NCBI GenBank assembly: GCA_017512045.1
Contig: JAFWHE010000009.1
Coordinates: 1 to 40,008, forward strand
Source of the DNA: Candidatus Saccharimonadota bacterium
GTDB taxonomy: Bacteria > Patescibacteriota > Saccharimonadia > Saccharimonadales > Saccharimonadaceae
Length of the DNA stretch: 40,008 nucleotides
Direction: 5' to 3'
Shown here: positions 2,584 to 30,029 of the stretch, one piece after another
Numbering within the stretch: position 1 is the stretch's first letter
How the letters are laid out: every line of letters starts with the position of its first letter
The notes under the pieces: generated by a model
Database searches by the model: none
Told to the model about the DNA's origin: nothing
The model's input: the letters and a program-made list of their open reading frames with translations, nothing else
Made by a program: the position numbers and the translations under genes

Positions 2584-3066
2584 CTATTTCTTTTCGCCTT
2601 TGCGGCTGTCTTCTGCGGTTTTGCGAGTAGGGATAGCTACTTTCTTAAAGCTACCACCAGCTTTCTTGATTGCTTCGACAGCAGTCCTAGAAGCAAACTG
2701 AGTACTAAGATCAATCTTTGCGGTAATCTCACCACGTGTGATAATCTTTACCTTAGCATAAGGAGTAGAAATCAACCCTGCATCATACAAAGCAAAATTA
2801 TCTACACTACCCTTCAGGCTATTTAGACGGTCTGTATAGACCACCTCTGCTTTAGCATGGATAGACTTAAAACCTTTTAGCTTTGGCACGGCTTGCATAA
2901 TAGCGCGCTGACCGCCCATGAAACCAGCTGGCATCTTACTATGGCCAGTACGAGCTTTTTGACCTTTGGTACCACGACCAGCAGTTTTACCCTGTCCAGC
3001 AGAAATACCGCGACCCTTGCGAGATGGACGAGTATTCTTTTCTACGTTTAATTCATTGTATTTCAT
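2584..3066 (-). CDS. rplO: 50S ribosomal protein L15
   Basis: L15 (uL15) helps late assembly of the large subunit. The 160 residues start with the family's glycine/arginine-rich arm (GRGISAGQGKTAGRGTKGQ), continue with GGQRAIMQAVPKLKGF, and end in a compact C-terminal domain plus a short charged tail. Its ATG shares one A with the rpsE stop (TAATG), so the two are translationally coupled. Most bacteria place rpmD (L30) between S5 and L15; here there is no room for it, as known for CPR bacteria. Confidence 0.97.
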   Translation of the reverse strand: MKYNELNVEKNTRPSRKGRGISAGQGKTAGRGTKGQKARTGHSKMPAGFMGGQRAIMQAVPKLKGFKSIHAKAEVVYTDRLNSLKGSVDNFALYDAGLISTPYAKVKIITRGEITAKIDLSTQFASRTAVEAIKKAGGSFKKVAIPTRKTAEDSRKGEKK

Positions 3067-21097: not shown

Positions 21098-21137
21098 CAT
21101 GTGTGGAAAACTTTTTTAAAATAATCTCTGTCATATA

Positions 21138-21166
21138 TTGACATAAGCATTTTCTCCAGGTAAAAT
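21138..21166 (+). promoter_or_regulatory. Near-consensus promoter of the 21.2-kb RNA
   Basis: TTGACA (21138-21143) matches the -35 consensus exactly; a 17-bp spacer is followed by TAAAAT (21161-21166). No reading frame follows, only the structured segment and a terminator. Confidence 0.8.
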
Positions 21167-21172
21167 AGATAC

Positions 21173-21291
21173 AAGTTCACACATAATTTGCTAGATTTTG
21201 TTGAACGTCCAAGCTAACTGCGAGTCAGCTTACATATATAAGTTGAGAGCTTATCTGTTCAAAAAGCCACCATGAGAGACGGTGGTTTTTT
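21173..21291 (+). ncRNA. Candidate free-standing structured RNA, about 119 nt
   Basis: The segment between a near-consensus promoter and an intrinsic terminator has no plausible reading frame. Pairings visible in the sequence make a branched fold. TTGAAC (21201-21206) pairs with GTTCAA (21257-21262), closing two inner hairpins. One is AAGCT-A-ACT, loop GCG, AGT-C-AGCTT (21211-21231, one mismatch). The other is ATAAGTT, loop GAG, AGCTTAT (21238-21254, one G-T). CCACC (21267-21271) with GGTGG (21281-21285) and six T form the terminator. It does not show SRP RNA, 6S, tmRNA or RNase P features I know. Size, promoter and fold support an independent small RNA; function unknown. Confidence 0.6.
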
Positions 21292-21308
21292 GGTGACAAT
21301 GGATAAAC

Positions 21309-21355: not shown

Positions 21356-21814
21356 TTAGATATCCAAATCATCCATGTCAGCGAGTTCAGCACGAGTCTT
21401 CTCTGCCAAATCAGATGTATCATCATCCAAATCGTCACCACCATAAGTATCTTCCTCGGCTGGAGCTTCTACCGCAGAGACATCCACAGAATCCGTAGTC
21501 TCCTCAGCAGGACTATCTTGAGCTGGCTCCTCTTGCGCGGCACCACGATCTTCATGGCGAGGAGCTGGACCATCATTAGTAATCTTTAAGTTATAGTGAG
21601 CATCATTCTTTGTGCCAAGAGCACGGAGCAGAGTACGGAGTGACTGCGCAGTAGCACCACGACGACCAATCACACGACCAACGTCTTCTGGATCTACGGT
21701 TAGTTGCAAGAGTACACCCTTTTCGTCAATTGTACGCTCCACCTCTACCTTGTCTGGATTGTTTACGAGTGTTTTTACTATATATTCTACGAATTGCTGG
21801 TCAATGGTTGACAT
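21356..21814 (-). CDS. khpA: KH-domain RNA-binding protein KhpA-like
   Basis: Residues 1-80 form a single KH domain with the GxxG loop in VGRVIGRRGATAQSLRTLLR, the hallmark of KhpA/YlqC proteins, which bind RNA and often work with KhpB. The remaining ~70 residues are an acidic Glu/Asp/Ala-rich tail (VEAPAEEDTYGGDDLDDD) absent from most relatives. It follows rpsP as in Firmicutes, but a terminator and its own promoter separate the two. GGAG precedes the ATG. The KH assignment is firm; the specific name is family knowledge. Confidence 0.88.
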   Translation of the reverse strand: MSTIDQQFVEYIVKTLVNNPDKVEVERTIDEKGVLLQLTVDPEDVGRVIGRRGATAQSLRTLLRALGTKNDAHYNLKITNDGPAPRHEDRGAAQEEPAQDSPAEETTDSVDVSAVEAPAEEDTYGGDDLDDDTSDLAEKTRAELADMDDLDI

Positions 21815-21925: not shown

Positions 21926-22330
21926 TTACTCGGCAGGTGTTTCTGCTGGCTTTTCTTCCGCCGGAGCTTCCGCCGTAGACTCTTCAGAAGCTGGAGCCTC
22001 TGCTGGAGCTTCTTCCTTTGGCTGATTCTTGCGGAGTTTGTCTGCATGCTTAGCCTTAGCAGACTTCTCTGGTGCAACTTTGACCCACTTTGGCAAGGTG
22101 ATCTTTTGACTCTTCAAAATACGAATCACACGACCACTTGGCTGGGCGCCATTGTTAAGATATTTTTTTACTGCCTCTTTGTCAAGGACGATTTCCTTGG
22201 TATGAGGGTTGTAAGAACCGACCTCAGCCACAATGCGTCCCGAAAGAGGGTGACGCTGCGCTTCTTGGACGATTATCCGATACACAGGATAGTGTGTTCG
22301 GCCATTACGCTGCAAACGAATCGCTAGCAT
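21926..22330 (-). CDS. rpsP: 30S ribosomal protein S16 with Ala/Glu tail
   Basis: S16 (bS16) is a small-subunit assembly protein. Residues 1-80 carry MLAIRLQRNGRTHYPVYRII and RIVAEVGSYNPHTKEIVLDK with the usual KKYLNNGAQPSGRVIRIL. The last ~45 residues are an Ala/Glu/Pro-rich low-complexity tail. The start has AAGGAG seven bases upstream. It has its own promoter (22359-22387). Confidence 0.96.
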   Translation of the reverse strand: MLAIRLQRNGRTHYPVYRIIVQEAQRHPLSGRIVAEVGSYNPHTKEIVLDKEAVKKYLNNGAQPSGRVIRILKSQKITLPKWVKVAPEKSAKAKHADKLRKNQPKEEAPAEAPASEESTAEAPAEEKPAETPAE

Positions 22331-23225: not shown

Positions 23226-26200
23226 TTATTTGTAGCATAATACATAGTACGCGTCGGTCTTACTACCGTTGAGCACGAACGCGGTGGAACTAAAGACGAT
23301 CAAGTGGCTGGCAGTATCGCTATTGAGCTCAGTAGAGGACCAATAGAAGCGAGTGCCGGAGAGGCCAAGATAGGAATATAATGTACCATCACCGCCAACA
23401 GTAGAGATGAGATTGTTAAAGTTAGCCATACTTGGTGCAGAATAACCAGTAGGACAGATACCAGATTTGACTGTGCCTTCCTGTGGATAAGTACTACCAG
23501 AGCTAGTATTGAAAGCATTGCTCCAGAGAGTAGTATTTCCACTATTTCCTAGTATCCATATTTTATTATCAGGCATCTTACAGCCGGTAGAAGTTGTAGG
23601 ATGGACTGAAGCGGAACAGTCTTTAATATCATCTTCCCATATCGCATATAGCGTCACTGTACCACCATGAATTGTACCAATGTCAGACTTTAAGGTGGAG
23701 GCTGCTACGGATTGGGAGGCATTGTAGTTAGTGCCGGTACCACTGGAATTAGTATTCCATTTCTTGAACACTTTATTACTTGGCGGAGTAAAGCCATTTG
23801 TCCTCAATGTGACATTAGTGCCATAATTAACAGTCTGGGAAGAGGTTGTACCGCTACCACCATTAGAGTTGTAGGCTAGAGTGAAGGAGTTGATGACAAA
23901 GTGTGGATAAAGAGTATATGTACCACCATTAGTACTAGTGAAGTTTGGTTTGGTGAGAGTAGCACCTAAGTCATAATCTTTGGTGTTGGAGGCAGAGTTA
24001 GTTCTGCTCCAGCCGTCTTGGTGGTAACCAGTCTTGGTACAGGTAGTGCTACTTAAGGTTACATTCTGGTCATAGACAGCAGGCGTACCGGATACGTTAC
24101 AAGTACTACCAGTGCTACCGGCAGCGTAAGTTACAGTGTAGTTATTAGCAGCAGAGTTAGCAGTTATGGATACGTCACTGTCTGGCATGACGAAGCCAGC
24201 TGGGGTGGTGGTACTGTTTGGTACAAGTGTAAGGCCACTAGGAGAGTTAATAGTCCAGGAGCTGAAGTGATAACCAGTGGCTGTCGCAGCATCAATGCTC
24301 ACAGCAGAGTTATAGTTGTAGGTACCTGAGCCAGTAGTACTGGTAATTTTAGCGTCTCCATTAATAGCTACATTATGGGACTTAATGTTATAGTGTGGAT
24401 ATAATGTATAGGTGCCACCGTTTTCTGAGGTGAAGTTAGGCTTTTCTAGGACAGTACCTAGATCATAGTCTTTGGCGTTAGTGGCAGAGTTAGTTCTGCT
24501 CCAACCATCTTGGACGTAGCCAGTCCTGTTACAAATTACATCGCTTAAGGTAACATTTTGGTCATAGGTAGCCTGGGTTGGAGTGATATCACAACTACCA
24601 CCTGCTGCACCAGCAGCGTAATTGATGCTATAGTTATTAGCTATAGCAGTTACCTTGAGTTGGACACTGTTATCTGGCATGGTAAAGGTATTGGTGAGAG
24701 AGGTCGGGGATGGTAGTGTAATGCCACCAAAGTCTACAGTCCACTTGTCGAAGTGATAGCCTTCACTGACAGTAGCAGAGACGGTGACAGTATCGTTAGT
24801 GTTGTACTTACCGGAACCGGAGAAGGATTCTATACCAACACCTTTCTCAATAGCGACTGCCATATCGGTGAGTTTGTAGCAGAGGATGTAACCCGGGGTA
24901 GTCTTAGTACTGCTATATACTCCCACACTGGAACTGAGGGTATCCATGTCATAGGCGGAGGAGCTATTTCTCTCAGTAGATGACCAGTAGGTGCGGTAGC
25001 TAGGCAAACCAAGTAGTTGGAATACTGCGCTACCACCACCAGTAGCGGAGATGAGAGTGTCATAGGTAGTTTTTCTTGGTGTAGAGTAACCAGTAGGACA
25101 GATACCGGAGTTCAAAGTGGCATCATGACCATCTACACCAGTAGCACCAGTGAACGCGTCGCTCCAAGTAATAGTATCTCCATTATTCCCCAGTATCCAC
25201 TCATTACCATCTGGCATGATACAGCTCTCCGTAACAGTTGGGTGATTAGTAGAAGAACAATTCTTTACTGCATCTTCCCATATTGCATAAAGTGTGACTG
25301 TACCGCCAGTAGTAGTAGAGATGTTTGGCTTTAGGGTGGCGGCAGCAACTGATTGGGAGGCGCTATAAGACGTGCCAGTACCATCACTTGATGTATTCCA
25401 TGCTAAGAACTTTTGTCCGCGAGGCGGAGTGAAGCTACTGTCTCTCAGTGTAACATTAGCTCCGTAATTGACGGTCTGGGAGTCAGTTGTACCACTACCG
25501 CCATTAGCACTATAGGATAGAGTAAAGGAGTTGACAGTAGCACTGGCATTAACCGTAACGTCGTTATCTGGCATAGTGAAGGCAGCTGGATTAGTAGTTG
25601 GGGTGGTAATACCGCCCTCAGCTACTGTCCAGTCACTAAAGTGATAACCAGTATCTGGTGTAGCGAAGATATTGACAGTAGCACCATAGTTGTAAGTGCC
25701 AGAGCCGGTGATGGAGGAGATGTGAGTACCCTTGCCAACCGTCACATTATGGGAGTTAATTACAAAGTGTGGATAAAGGGTATAGATGCCATCGTTTTCT
25801 GAGGTGAAGTTAGGCTTGACTAAGGCTTGTCCTAAGTCATAGTCCTTGGTATTACCGGTAGCTGATGTAGACCAACCGTCTTGGTGGTAGTGATCTTTGA
25901 TGCAAACTGTACTAGTAAGAGTGACATCCTGGTCATAAGTAGCAGGTGTACTGGATACATTACAGGTACCACCTGTAACTCCGGCACCATAGGCTATGGT
26001 GTAGTTATTGGCTGTGCCTTTAGCGGTAACTGATACATCACTATCTGGCATGACGAAGCCAGCTGGGGTAGTGACATTATCTGGGGTGATTGCAAGTCCA
26101 CTTGCAGGAGAGTTTACCGTCCAAGAGCTAAAGTGATAGCCAGTAGCTGGAGTGGCAGAAATACTTACTGCAGTGCCATAGTCATAAGTGCCAGAGCCGG

Positions 26201-29200
26201 TAGTATCAATGATGTTAGCACCCTCATTTACGGTCACAGTATGTGAGTTGATGGCAAAGTGCGGGTAAAGAGTATACGTACCGCCATTTTCTGAAGTAAA
26301 GTTTGGCTTGGTCAAGGTCTGGCCTAAGTCATAGTCTTTGGTGTCACTAGTAGCTGATGTGGACCAGCCGTCTTGGTGGTAATGGTCTTTAGTGCAGACT
26401 GTACTAGTAAGAGTAACGTCTTGGTCATAGGTGGCTGGAGTACCGGATATGTCGCAGGTGGCACCAGTACTACCAGCAGCATAGGCTACTGTATAGTTAT
26501 TAGCGGTACCGTTAGCGGTAAGAGTGATTGCTCCGGCTGGCATAGTGAAGATATAAGTGGCATCAGAGGAGCTAGGTAGAAGAGACGGGTTATTAGATTC
26601 CCAACCAGTACAGTGGTAGCCAGTCTTTGACGTACAGATGGCAGCGATTGAGAAGTCATAAGGTCTGTCGCCAGTAGTTGGGGAAACAGATTCAATAGCG
26701 GTGGAATTGCCATTAACAATTGTGAGTTTGTATGATTCCTTTGTCGCATAGGCTGTAATTTCTACGTCACTGTCTGGCATAGTAAAGAAAGTAGTAGTAC
26801 TAGTTGGTGAGGTGATGATGATGCTACCAGAATCAACAGTCCATTCGTCAAACTTGTAGCCGGAAGAGAAGTTAGAGGCAGAGATAATGACGACTGCGCC
26901 ATACTCATAAGTACCACTACCGGAGACAGTACCAACGTGGGAGTCTTTGTTAATAGTTACTGTGTGGGAGTTAATCACAAAGTGTGGATAAAGAGTATAC
27001 GTGCCGCCGTCTTCTGCGGTGAAGTTAGGTTTTTCTAATGTGGCACCTAGATCATAGTCTTTGGTGTTAGTAGCAGAGTTGGTTCTGCTCCAGCCGTCTT
27101 GGGTGTAGCCTTCTTTGGTGCATCTGGTGGAGGAGAGAGTGACATTAGAGTCATAGGTGGCAGGGGTAGAAGTGGCGGTACAAGTGCTACCGGTATTGCC
27201 AGCGGAATAGGCTACGGTGTAGTGGTTCCAAGCCCATTGGGCGAAGAGTGTGACTGTGCCACCATGAACAGTTGCAATGTCAGGCTTGAGTGTGGAAGCA
27301 GCGACATTGGTCTGCGAAGCATTGTAGTCAGTACCAGTACCATCGGCTTTGGTATTCCACTTAACGAAGTGTTTGCCGGTGGCTGGAGCAAAGCCATTAG
27401 CCCTAATGGTGATAGTAGTATTATAGTTAACGGCTTGAGAAGAAGTGGAGCCGGAAGCACTAGTGTCGTTTTTTTCGTAAGTAAGGATGAAGCTATTAAT
27501 GGCACCACCAGCAGTTAATGTGGTTGCTCCGGCTGGCATATTGAAGCCGTAAGAAGCATCGGATGAGCTCGGTAGAAGAGAAGTATCGCTAGAAGTCCAG
27601 CCAGTGCAGTGATAACCAGTATTTGGCGTACAGACAGCATTAATAGCAGCATTATAGGTCTGGTCGCCAGTGGCCGGAGAAGTAGATTTGACGGCAGTGG
27701 TATTACCATTAACGATAGTAAGTGTGTAAGACTTGATGGTGCAGACAGCGAAGAAGGTGGTGTTAGTGGTGACAGATACTTCTGTATTACCATCATACTT
27801 AGGTCCAGAGGCAGAACCCATTGCCCACTGACAGCCATAACCAGTCTTAGTAATCTGTGGTAGAGCGAAGGTGGCAGAATAGCCAGCGGTTAGAGTACCA
27901 TCGCCAGCACCATAGGTCCAGGTTTTGTTACTGGCGGTCCAAATGCCAGTACCATTCTTAGTCCAGCCAGTGAAGTTACTAGCAACACTGGTTGGCTGCT
28001 CAACATAGGATGCACCCTGAGAGTTGGCATCGTAAGTGATAATGTAGTTAGGGGTAGCACTTGGATCGGCAATAAACTTGGTAGAGTTGTAATCCTGAAT
28101 GAAGTCTTGGTCTGTAGTCTTGCCGCTCCAAGTACCACCATTTGGCTTAACGGTAAGTTTGTATTGATTAGCAGTAAAGTGTGGATAAAGAGTATACGTG
28201 CCGCCGTCTTCTGCAGTGAAGTTAGGCTTTTCTAGGGTTTGTCCCATGTCGTAGTCTTTGGCGTTGGTAGCAGAGTTGGTTCTGCTCCAGCCGTCTTGGG
28301 TGTAGCCTTCTTTGGTACATTTGGTGGAGGAGAGGGTGACATTAGAGTCATAGGTGGCAGGGGTAGAAGTGGCGGTACAAGTGCTACCGGTATTACCAGC
28401 GGAATAGGCTACGGTGTAGTGGTTCGGACTAGTGCTAACAGTCAAAGTGACATCATTGTCTGGGACAGTGAAGGTAGTTTGTTCTGAAATATCACTAGCA
28501 ATGGTGCCGCCACCATTAGAAGTCCACTTAGTAAAGTGGTAACCTGCAGCCGGCTGATCAGCCTTAATAGTGATAATGTCATTGTAGCTGAACACGCCAG
28601 TAGTGGTAGAACTTTGGCCATCTATGATGACGCCACCAACGGTATTGATAGTGTGTGCATTAATAGTAAAGTGCGGATAAAGAGTATAGATGCCACCATC
28701 TTCTGCGGTAAAGTTTGCCTTAGCAACAGTAGCACCGACATTGTAGTCTTTGATACTACCAGTAGCCGATACAGACCAACCGTCCTGGACATAGTGTTCC
28801 TTAACGCAGCTAGCGTGAGCTAGGGTGACATCCTGGTCATAGGTGGCTGCAGTAGGGCTAGCCGTACAAGTACCACCAGTATTACCGCCGTTATAGACAA
28901 CAGCATAGTGGTTAGCAGCACCATTAGCAGTTAAGGTAAAGGCTCCAGCTGGCATATTGAAGTTATAAGTAGGATCACCTGAGCTAGGTAAGAGCTCTGG
29001 GTTGCTAGATTCCCAGCCAGTACAGTGATAACCAGTGTTTGGCGTACAAGTAGCAGTAATCGGTGCATTGTAGTCCCTATCGCCCGTAATAGGAGAAGTG
29101 GACTTGATAGCGATGACGTTGCCATTAGTAATAGTGAGACGGTAACTATTGATAGCCCACTGCGCCACTAGAGTGATAACAGAAGAAAAGCCATCATCTA

Positions 29201-29975
29201 TTACTTGATTACTATCTATTGGTAAATTACTATAAAGTGTTGCTCCTTCTCCGTCTTTGACATCCCAACCAGAGAGATGATAACCAGTCTTAGCAATCTT
29301 ATCCGTAGTGGAGTATTGCGATAGGTCTACTTTGTCGCCAAAGTTTACCTTCGGCCTATTATCACCAGTCGGGAGCGTACTGGAGGTAGCACCATTCGTG
29401 TCGAAGTCTAGAGTGTATTTGAGGCAGGTCTCGTCTAGGATGAGGGTGTATAATACCTGGCCAGAATATATACCAGGAGTCTTGCCTACTGGTACGCGTA
29501 CACCATAGTAGACAGAGTAATCCTCATTACCAGAGCCAACGTATAACGGGATTAGCTTACCAGTGTCCGGGTCATAATCTTGCAACCCTGCAAAGGATAG
29601 ATTGTTTGTACTGATGCCCCATGTATTTGGTGCTAGCATACTTTCCGAGCCAGGAGCATGACCTGAAGTAGGGATATTGTCGGACTGATCGCTCAGGGAG
29701 AGGCTAGTACTACCACCTTCTGTAGATGTGACATAGAGATTGTAATTAGCGGGGCAGTTGGTACCAATGGAGACGACATCGTCAGTAGTAGAGATGGTAT
29801 TCTCGTAGACGCCGAGCTCTACGTCTTCTGTATGTCTATGTATGTTGGCATAGTATGGTTCGGCGTAGGCGGGGTGGGAGAGAACGAAAGAAAAAGCCAT
29901 CCCGCCCAACACTGCGAGCAATACAAGAAGCCAATGCCTAATAGGCTTCCAAAAAGATGACCTTATTATCCCCAA
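23226..29975 (-). CDS. Giant secreted InlB-repeat/FISUMP modular protein
   Basis: About 2249 residues. I start it at the TTG at 29975, eight bases after GGAGG; the frame is open to another TTG at 29999. A signal peptide follows (basic start, LLVLLAVLGGMAFSFVL, cleavage after AYA). Residues to about 195 are a unique head. Five repeat kinds of ~75-90 residues then alternate. They are Listeria-Bacteroides/InlB-B-like units ending LYAIWED or LVAQWA; divergent InlB units (SHTVTV...GSGTY...GYHF..W); two-cysteine units ending GGTYTLYPHF; NGN...CTPNTGYHCTGW units; and two FISUMP-type domains (about 24870-25270 and 23226-23640) with PTGYS and YWSSTE motifs. The protein ends at the second FISUMP domain, YYVLCYK. 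No LPXTG motif or C-terminal membrane anchor is seen. A role in adhesion or host contact is inference. Confidence 0.9.
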   Translation of the reverse strand: MGIIRSSFWKPIRHWLLVLLAVLGGMAFSFVLSHPAYAEPYYANIHRHTEDVELGVYENTISTTDDVVSIGTNCPANYNLYVTSTEGGSTSLSLSDQSDNIPTSGHAPGSESMLAPNTWGISTNNLSFAGLQDYDPDTGKLIPLYVGSGNEDYSVYYGVRVPVGKTPGIYSGQVLYTLILDETCLKYTLDFDTNGATSSTLPTGDNRPKVNFGDKVDLSQYSTTDKIAKTGYHLSGWDVKDGEGATLYSNLPIDSNQVIDDGFSSVITLVAQWAINSYRLTITNGNVIAIKSTSPITGDRDYNAPITATCTPNTGYHCTGWESSNPELLPSSGDPTYNFNMPAGAFTLTANGAANHYAVVYNGGNTGGTCTASPTAATYDQDVTLAHASCVKEHYVQDGWSVSATGSIKDYNVGATVAKANFTAEDGGIYTLYPHFTINAHTINTVGGVIIDGQSSTTTGVFSYNDIITIKADQPAAGYHFTKWTSNGGGTIASDISEQTTFTVPDNDVTLTVSTSPNHYTVAYSAGNTGSTCTATSTPATYDSNVTLSSTKCTKEGYTQDGWSRTNSATNAKDYDMGQTLEKPNFTAEDGGTYTLYPHFTANQYKLTVKPNGGTWSGKTTDQDFIQDYNSTKFIADPSATPNYIITYDANSQGASYVEQPTSVASNFTGWTKNGTGIWTASNKTWTYGAGDGTLTAGYSATFALPQITKTGYGCQWAMGSASGPKYDGNTEVSVTTNTTFFAVCTIKSYTLTIVNGNTTAVKSTSPATGDQTYNAAINAVCTPNTGYHCTGWTSSDTSLLPSSSDASYGFNMPAGATTLTAGGAINSFILTYEKNDTSASGSTSSQAVNYNTTITIRANGFAPATGKHFVKWNTKADGTGTDYNASQTNVAASTLKPDIATVHGGTVTLFAQWAWNHYTVAYSAGNTGSTCTATSTPATYDSNVTLSSTRCTKEGYTQDGWSRTNSATNTKDYDLGATLEKPNFTAEDGGTYTLYPHFVINSHTVTINKDSHVGTVSGSGTYEYGAVVIISASNFSSGYKFDEWTVDSGSIIITSPTSTTTFFTMPDSDVEITAYATKESYKLTIVNGNSTAIESVSPTTGDRPYDFSIAAICTSKTGYHCTGWESNNPSLLPSSSDATYIFTMPAGAITLTANGTANNYTVAYAAGSTGATCDISGTPATYDQDVTLTSTVCTKDHYHQDGWSTSATSDTKDYDLGQTLTKPNFTSENGGTYTLYPHFAINSHTVTVNEGANIIDTTGSGTYDYGTAVSISATPATGYHFSSWTVNSPASGLAITPDNVTTPAGFVMPDSDVSVTAKGTANNYTIAYGAGVTGGTCNVSSTPATYDQDVTLTSTVCIKDHYHQDGWSTSATGNTKDYDLGQALVKPNFTSENDGIYTLYPHFVINSHNVTVGKGTHISSITGSGTYNYGATVNIFATPDTGYHFSDWTVAEGGITTPTTNPAAFTMPDNDVTVNASATVNSFTLSYSANGGSGTTDSQTVNYGANVTLRDSSFTPPRGQKFLAWNTSSDGTGTSYSASQSVAAATLKPNISTTTGGTVTLYAIWEDAVKNCSSTNHPTVTESCIMPDGNEWILGNNGDTITWSDAFTGATGVDGHDATLNSGICPTGYSTPRKTTYDTLISATGGGSAVFQLLGLPSYRTYWSSTERNSSSAYDMDTLSSSVGVYSSTKTTPGYILCYKLTDMAVAIEKGVGIESFSGSGKYNTNDTVTVSATVSEGYHFDKWTVDFGGITLPSPTSLTNTFTMPDNSVQLKVTAIANNYSINYAAGAAGGSCDITPTQATYDQNVTLSDVICNRTGYVQDGWSRTNSATNAKDYDLGTVLEKPNFTSENGGTYTLYPHYNIKSHNVAINGDAKITSTTGSGTYNYNSAVSIDAATATGYHFSSWTINSPSGLTLVPNSTTTPAGFVMPDSDVSITANSAANNYTVTYAAGSTGSTCNVSGTPAVYDQNVTLSSTTCTKTGYHQDGWSRTNSASNTKDYDLGATLTKPNFTSTNGGTYTLYPHFVINSFTLAYNSNGGSGTTSSQTVNYGTNVTLRTNGFTPPSNKVFKKWNTNSSGTGTNYNASQSVAASTLKSDIGTIHGGTVTLYAIWEDDIKDCSASVHPTTSTGCKMPDNKIWILGNSGNTTLWSNAFNTSSGSTYPQEGTVKSGICPTGYSAPSMANFNNLISTVGGDGTLYSYLGLSGTRFYWSSTELNSDTASHLIVFSSTAFVLNGSKTDAYYVLCYK
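26979..27228 (-). repeat. Near-identical intragenic repeat, copy 1
   Basis: This ~250-bp segment encodes a two-cysteine module of the giant protein and matches 28175-28425 with only scattered substitutions by eye. Identity is far higher than between other modules of the same kind, which suggests recent duplication or gene conversion. Confidence 0.75.
28175..28425 (-). repeat. Near-identical intragenic repeat, copy 2
   Basis: Second copy of the segment at 26979-27228. Differences cluster around the codons for KDYDMGQTLEKP versus KDYDLGATLEKP; the rest is almost unchanged. The copies are in direct orientation, about 1.2 kb apart, so recombination between them would delete several modules in frame. 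Confidence 0.75.
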
Positions 29976-30029
29976 AACTAAAACCTCCAATGTAACCAAA
30001 GCTCAAAAACGCTTTTGGTAACTGATTTT

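Follow-up and report, generated by a model that had tools for sequence, protein, structure and literature searches.

A short intergenic segment of a Candidatus Saccharimonadota bacterium (assembly GCA_017512045.1, contig JAFWHE010000009.1) displays strong transcription signals at both ends and raises the question of whether it constitutes an independent RNA gene, how widely such a gene occurs among related organisms and which task it could perform. The window is the whole stretch of DNA analysed, namely positions 1 to 40,008 of this contig (40,008 nucleotides), and coordinates refer to its forward strand unless the minus strand is indicated.

Transcription signals and coding potential

The original prediction described a promoter of the form TTGACA-N17-TAAAAT and an intrinsic terminator, with no plausible reading frame in between, and each of these elements is borne out. 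The -35 box TTGACA (21138-21143) and the -10 box TAAAAT (21161-21166), separated by a 17-nt spacer, give an 11/12 match and form the top-scoring sigma-70-like site of the promoter scan within the surrounding 2.2 kb. A -35/-10 promoter is also located just upstream in all 20 copies retrieved by blastn, with a TTGACA-like box in each of them. The predicted small RNA transcript (21173-21291), delineated with the help of homologs retrieved by blastn and by the covariance models R1 and R2, would start about 7 nt past the -10 box and end within the T run.

The terminator (21260-21293) is plain in the sequence, appears in the predicted fold and is also supported by covariation. It comprises an A-tract, a CCACC/GGTGG stem (21267-21285) with TGAGAG in the loop, a run of six T (21286-21291) and a final GG. 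A hairpin followed by a T run lies downstream of 53 of the 58 model hits examined, compared with 11 of 415 random background positions. UUGAG recurs in the loop region of the terminator in 20 of 91 genus-type copies (1.8% expected). The terminator helix of the window (21258-21293) and of its homologs extends past the T tract, where the GG provides two extra pairs that are kept and covary (CG, UG, AU, UA). These two pairs would be missing from a transcript that stops within the T run, and a two-way terminator may explain them.

As for coding potential, the distance from UGCGAG to GAG is uniform modulo 3 (54/50/44 across 148 copies) and an open frame through the core is missing in 106 of these 148 copies. 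A conserved small reading frame, which would have counted against the original prediction, is therefore not observed.

Fold and covariation

The 125-nt segment is predicted to fold better than shuffled sequence (z -2.74), the individual pairings resting on predicted energies, which are no guide to folding inside cells. The MFE fold contains a 5' hairpin (21175-21206) in which GTTCA (21175-21179) pairs with TGAAC (21202-21206) around a loop of 22 nt, enlarged in the window species; GTTC..GAAC is present in 58 of 148 copies. It also contains the P2 hairpin (21226-21245), formed by CAGCUUA (21226-21232) and UAAGUUG (21239-21245), which covaries order-wide and is found for the genus as well. The closing stem originally proposed around two hairpins, TTGAAC (21201-21206) with GTTCAA (21257-21262), was dropped: its letters are present but it is absent from the MFE fold, and both halves are retained in only 20 of 148 copies, about one in seven.

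In many copies, P1 (AAAGCUC:GAGCUUU) and P2 are predicted to flank a bulge of about 7 nt that contains UGCGAG. This core hairpin is followed by GAGCYUUAUNUG and then by the intrinsic terminator. The second conserved element of the window, UUGAGAGCUUAU (21243-21254), displays GAG, GC and TAT columns that are invariant or nearly so. The 5' arm of P1, AAGCU (21211-21215), has two possible partners in the window: AGCUU at 21227-21231, giving a local hairpin, and AGCUU at 21248-21252, giving the ancestral P1. The latter (GCUC:GAGC) is nearly invariant across the order and therefore shows little covariation of its own. In the window's genus, the four pairs of the local hairpin all display changes on both sides; the new AGCUU places UGCGAG in a hairpin loop and competes with the ancestral fold, while the AAGCU arm is still able to pair with the distal AGCUU in the manner of the ancestral P1. 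Since GCUC/AAGCU possesses, inside and outside the genus, two mutually exclusive downstream partners, the RNA may alternate between two conformations.

The hexamer UGCGAG (21219-21224) is near-invariant and predicted to be mostly unpaired. Among 37 order-wide copies, the GCGAG columns are invariant and the leading U exceeds 90%. For many non-genus copies, the computed probability of its being unpaired is close to 1; values are lower within the window's genus, the window copy reaching about 0.66. Of 57 non-genus RNAs, 27 have an extra UGCGAG upstream, against none of the shuffles; the motif is generally single-copy within the RNAs of the genus. Two loci, L075 and L108 (near position 3000), have lost UGCGAG and retain khpA, TATAAT at the khpA stop, GAG..TTAT and the terminator; on these features, they are decayed or diverged members of the family.

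Compensatory changes among homologs, a check suggested together with the original prediction, are far more frequent than in shuffles. The order-wide alignment A7 (57 distinct rows) contains 69 double-sided changed cells versus 28 after shuffling, with a covariation score of 0.229 versus 0.082, neither value being reached in 500 shuffles; this alignment was fitted to the covariance model, which flatters structure, and shifting partners by 1-3 columns also abolishes the signal. For the genus, alignment A8, with 72 distinct rows, has 134 such cells versus 29 after shuffling, and again none of 500 shuffles reaches this value. A kink-turn was rejected by hand because the tandem G-A order beside P2 is reversed.

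Distribution and gene neighbourhood

Copies were retrieved by blastn with the segment in 20 genomes, including that of the window, all belonging to the same genus; a 21st match (L021) was taken as chance. The covariance model R1, built from 14 copies, generally detects one strong copy per genome in most of the 147 genus genomes, and copies elsewhere in the order as well. The model R2, restricted to the core and built from 10 copies all originating from outside the genus, matches 136 of 246 order genomes, mostly with E<1e-4. Most genus members escape R2, owing to the rearranged hairpin of the genus. R1, conserved synteny and the genus g32 (L054-L061), whose genus-type core stands directly behind khpA, tie the genus copies to those of the order. 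No convincing copy was found with R2 among about 340 Patescibacteria genomes of other orders and classes; the phylum-level match L159, inside an apparent coding gene with khpA not near, was taken as chance. The match L099, also with khpA not near, was treated in the same way. A scan of 84,980 species genomes with an exact DNA pattern returned 77 records, of which 76 are labelled Saccharibacteria or TM7, many coming from ruminant guts and one from an oral taxon. The single record labelled Nomurabacteria resides on a contig that also has rpsP-khpA next to the RNA. Viral contigs scanned with the genus pattern contained no copy. Judged from these sequences, this is a single-copy, structured non-coding RNA gene of about 100-120 nt, ancestral to the order of the window, presumably Saccharimonadales.

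In the window, the RNA is convergent with khpA (21356-21814, minus strand), which encodes a KH-domain RNA-binding protein (Pfam PF13083, E 1.1e-22) and is accompanied by rpsP (21926-22330, minus strand; ribosomal protein S16, Pfam PF00886), an ancestral neighbour by synteny. Outside the genus, rpsP, khpA, the RNA and trmD follow one another on a single strand in nearly every parsed locus. The RNA usually lies 0-130 nt past the end of khpA; trmD is usually found downstream, at distances ranging from tens of nt in some genomes to more than 1 kb. Almost every R2 hit examined is located just 3' of khpA, the model itself being blind to context. Genus members often have the RNA behind khpA; it is inverted in the window and located elsewhere in others, and some copies are inverted or have neither khpA nor trmD nearby.

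When the RNA is attached, khpA ends in GAT ATA TAA T, so that its last codon and stop form the -10 box TATAAT; TTGCAG is found 18 nt upstream, within codons for ELADLDDLDI. The ending ATA TAA T is present in 57 of 71 attached loci versus 1 of 57 detached or inverted ones (Fisher p 1e-21, uncorrected for descent; related species enter the promoter and codon counts as independent cases). The detached copies generally possess other -35/-10 pairs (TTGACA/TATAAT-like) at the right distance. Comparison of the loci indicates that the window's genus gained a near-consensus promoter and that the RNA was moved or flipped in some genomes. A khpA stop codon doubling as a -10 box is a clear overlap of coding and promoter selection. 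A palindrome-like element, common to a subclade (L008, L010, L011, L037, L062) and fullest in L037 (TGTTGTAAAAATTACAACA), lies upstream of the promoter and is a possible candidate operator.

A DnaA-box-like site, TGTGGAAAA (TTTTCCACA on the opposite strand), is located at 21102-21110, 27 bp upstream of the -35 box. Such a site occurs within 220 nt upstream of 9 of 60 genus loci (0.68 per kb versus 0.021 for the background). In the window's family outside the genus, TTNTCCACA or its complement is found in all parsed loci, about 114-210 nt before UGCGAG; no such site was found upstream of the RNA in parsed loci of other families. The loci concerned are L072-L091, L107-L111, L121, L141-L157 and the window (21102-21110). 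Codons of the khpA tail (GTG GAA AAC and variants) partly encode the site; in the window it falls outside coding sequence, as it does in L077, L087 and L088, three loci whose KhpA tail has no matching peptide. Regulation of the RNA gene by DnaA is possible, and the site may, speculatively, couple RNA synthesis to replication in the window's family. Four TTTTCCACA-type boxes, the same word as the upstream site, are clustered in 200 bp at G000:C25:36332-36528, a segment that, by analogy, is the likely replication origin of the G000 genome. Five TGTGGATAA words are also present in the window inside a 2257-aa predicted repetitive surface-protein-like reading frame (23226-29999, minus strand), probably as a result of repeated codons.

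Identity and possible function

The Rfam search recommended with the original prediction places the RNA in no family: nothing reached the gathering score for the window copy, and the order-level copies gave no match either. RNAI (RF00106), the best sub-threshold match to the window copy with 24.5 of 47 bits, was taken as chance, being far under the cut-off, with no plasmid origin and several mismatched pairs. A search of the partly accessible literature retrieved nothing on small RNAs of Saccharibacteria, and the small RNA gene is previously undescribed. Of the suggestion that it is possibly undescribed in this lineage, the first part is thus upheld by the lack of an Rfam family and the restriction to the lineage is lost, the RNA being order-wide. 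With its own promoter and terminator, covarying helices showing compensatory changes, no conserved frame and no Rfam family, the predicted product is an independent bacterial structured small RNA, as originally argued.

The explanation that we favor, with about even confidence, is that this order-ancestral gene would specify a trans-acting RNA binding a protein through UGCGAG, KhpA/KhpB being the first suspects. Action in trans is suggested because the RNA is kept when apart from khpA and trmD. The unpaired UGCGAG would most likely serve as the place where an RNA-binding protein docks, this protein being titrated or escorted by the RNA. A protein ligand is the role best suited to short motifs that are conserved, repeated and mostly unpaired, in an RNA for which no conserved mRNA complement was detected. 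The first candidate partner would be KhpA, alone or paired with KhpB, and an R3H (KhpB-type) protein is encoded in 54 of 60 genomes. What implicates KhpA is solely gene neighbourhood, which is shared with rpsP and trmD, and KhpA specifically as the partner of UGCGAG is less likely than not.

Several known systems offer partial parallels. The enterobacterial 3'-region sRNAs MicL and DapZ are transcribed from a promoter of their own, situated within an upstream gene or at its end. Like the present RNA, they are independent sRNAs that start from a promoter lying in the 3' part of a coding gene and stop at an intrinsic terminator. There is no known sequence relation; in Saccharibacteria, by contrast, the -10 box is the last codon plus stop, and the RNA is order-wide, was later detached and flipped, and has no targets found. 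RNAs of the CsrB/RsmZ type titrate a protein by means of a repeated short motif, GGA. The likeness would reside in a short motif that is repeated and displayed unpaired in hairpins; the Saccharibacteria motif differs in being UGCGAG, in one to three copies. The KhpA/KhpB-associated RNAs of Firmicutes (Grad-seq reports PMC10117718, PMC7196914) offer a further parallel, in that the present gene adjoins khpA and a KhpB-type partner is encoded too; binding in Saccharibacteria is putative.

A clearly less probable explanation is that of a trans-acting antisense sRNA, in which UGCGAG or UUGAGAGCUUAU would pair near mRNA start codons with KhpA/KhpB as chaperone. The standalone promoter, the intrinsic terminator, the unpaired hexamer that hardly varies and the duplicated motifs are usual features of such RNAs, but no conserved target emerged from a comparison of two genus genomes: duplex energies of 460 orthologs were uncorrelated (Spearman 0.05, p 0.24) and seed complements shared by orthologs were no commoner than for shuffled seeds, in a weak test covering two species, start regions only and a crude duplex model. 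It is still less likely that the RNA is a cis element of the khpA-trmD transcript, either a stabiliser of the khpA 3' end or a riboswitch-like attenuator preceding trmD. The ancestral site between khpA and trmD with its terminator, the start of trmD within tens of nt in some genomes and the existence of alternative pairings would suit such a role; the relocated and inverted genus copies, however, argue against it, constant linkage to trmD or khpA not being observed and the RNA being retained in the genus when inverted or far from both. Moreover, trmD can be more than 1 kb away, and only attached loci have a khpA end tuned to TATAAT, a feature that a 3' UTR would not need.

A more elaborate and improbable reading is that of an order-wide housekeeping RNP RNA outside known classes, a two-state bulged-hairpin ligand of KhpA/KhpB that would be controlled by DnaA and link RNA metabolism and replication in organisms that seem to lack the signal recognition particle (SRP). 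A diverged version of a known housekeeping RNA (SRP RNA, 6S RNA or tmRNA) was rejected as very improbable. Size, broad presence in the order and failure to find SRP RNA and 6S elsewhere would be in its favor. The RNA is nevertheless matched neither by the covariance models of SRP RNA (RF00169, RF01854) nor by that of 6S RNA (RF00013), and the long rod with a central bubble of 6S RNA is missing from its fold; order-level copies have no Rfam match either. No tmRNA (RF00023) was found at the RNA locus, nor by ARAGORN in the window, and the tmRNA is located elsewhere in the genome, at G000:C6. The SRP RNA models matched 0/36 and 0/40 order genomes, and the Ffh M domain (PF02978) is missing from 118 of 118 order genomes while 14 of 14 controls were positive. 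SRP is not expected in the absence of this domain and seems to be absent from the whole order; SRP loss has been published for Parcubacteria (PMC4508563). With tmRNA elsewhere and both SRP RNA and Ffh apparently absent, the RNA is neither tmRNA nor SRP RNA, as the lack of any SRP RNA, 6S or tmRNA signature had originally suggested. A short coding or leader-peptide gene, with GAGAG followed at ribosome-site distance by NUG and a few codons (M-F/S-K-K-P by eye in some genus copies), is hardly credible and was rejected: the frame is not kept, the start codon varies freely (ATG/GTG/CTG/TTG) as does the predicted peptide length (1 to 59 codons), and the apparent codons overlap the A-tract and the terminator stem, whose pairing explains them.

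The covariance models R1 and R2 could seed an Rfam family. Saccharibacteria are now amenable to mutation (PMC10633639), and the necessity of the RNA is therefore directly testable. The gene is widespread in an order in which regulation has hardly been studied. Its retention by genomes no larger than about 1 Mb, stripped of most optional functions, argues for a basic role, and since it is found in most order genomes examined, the RNA probably does a basic job in these organisms.
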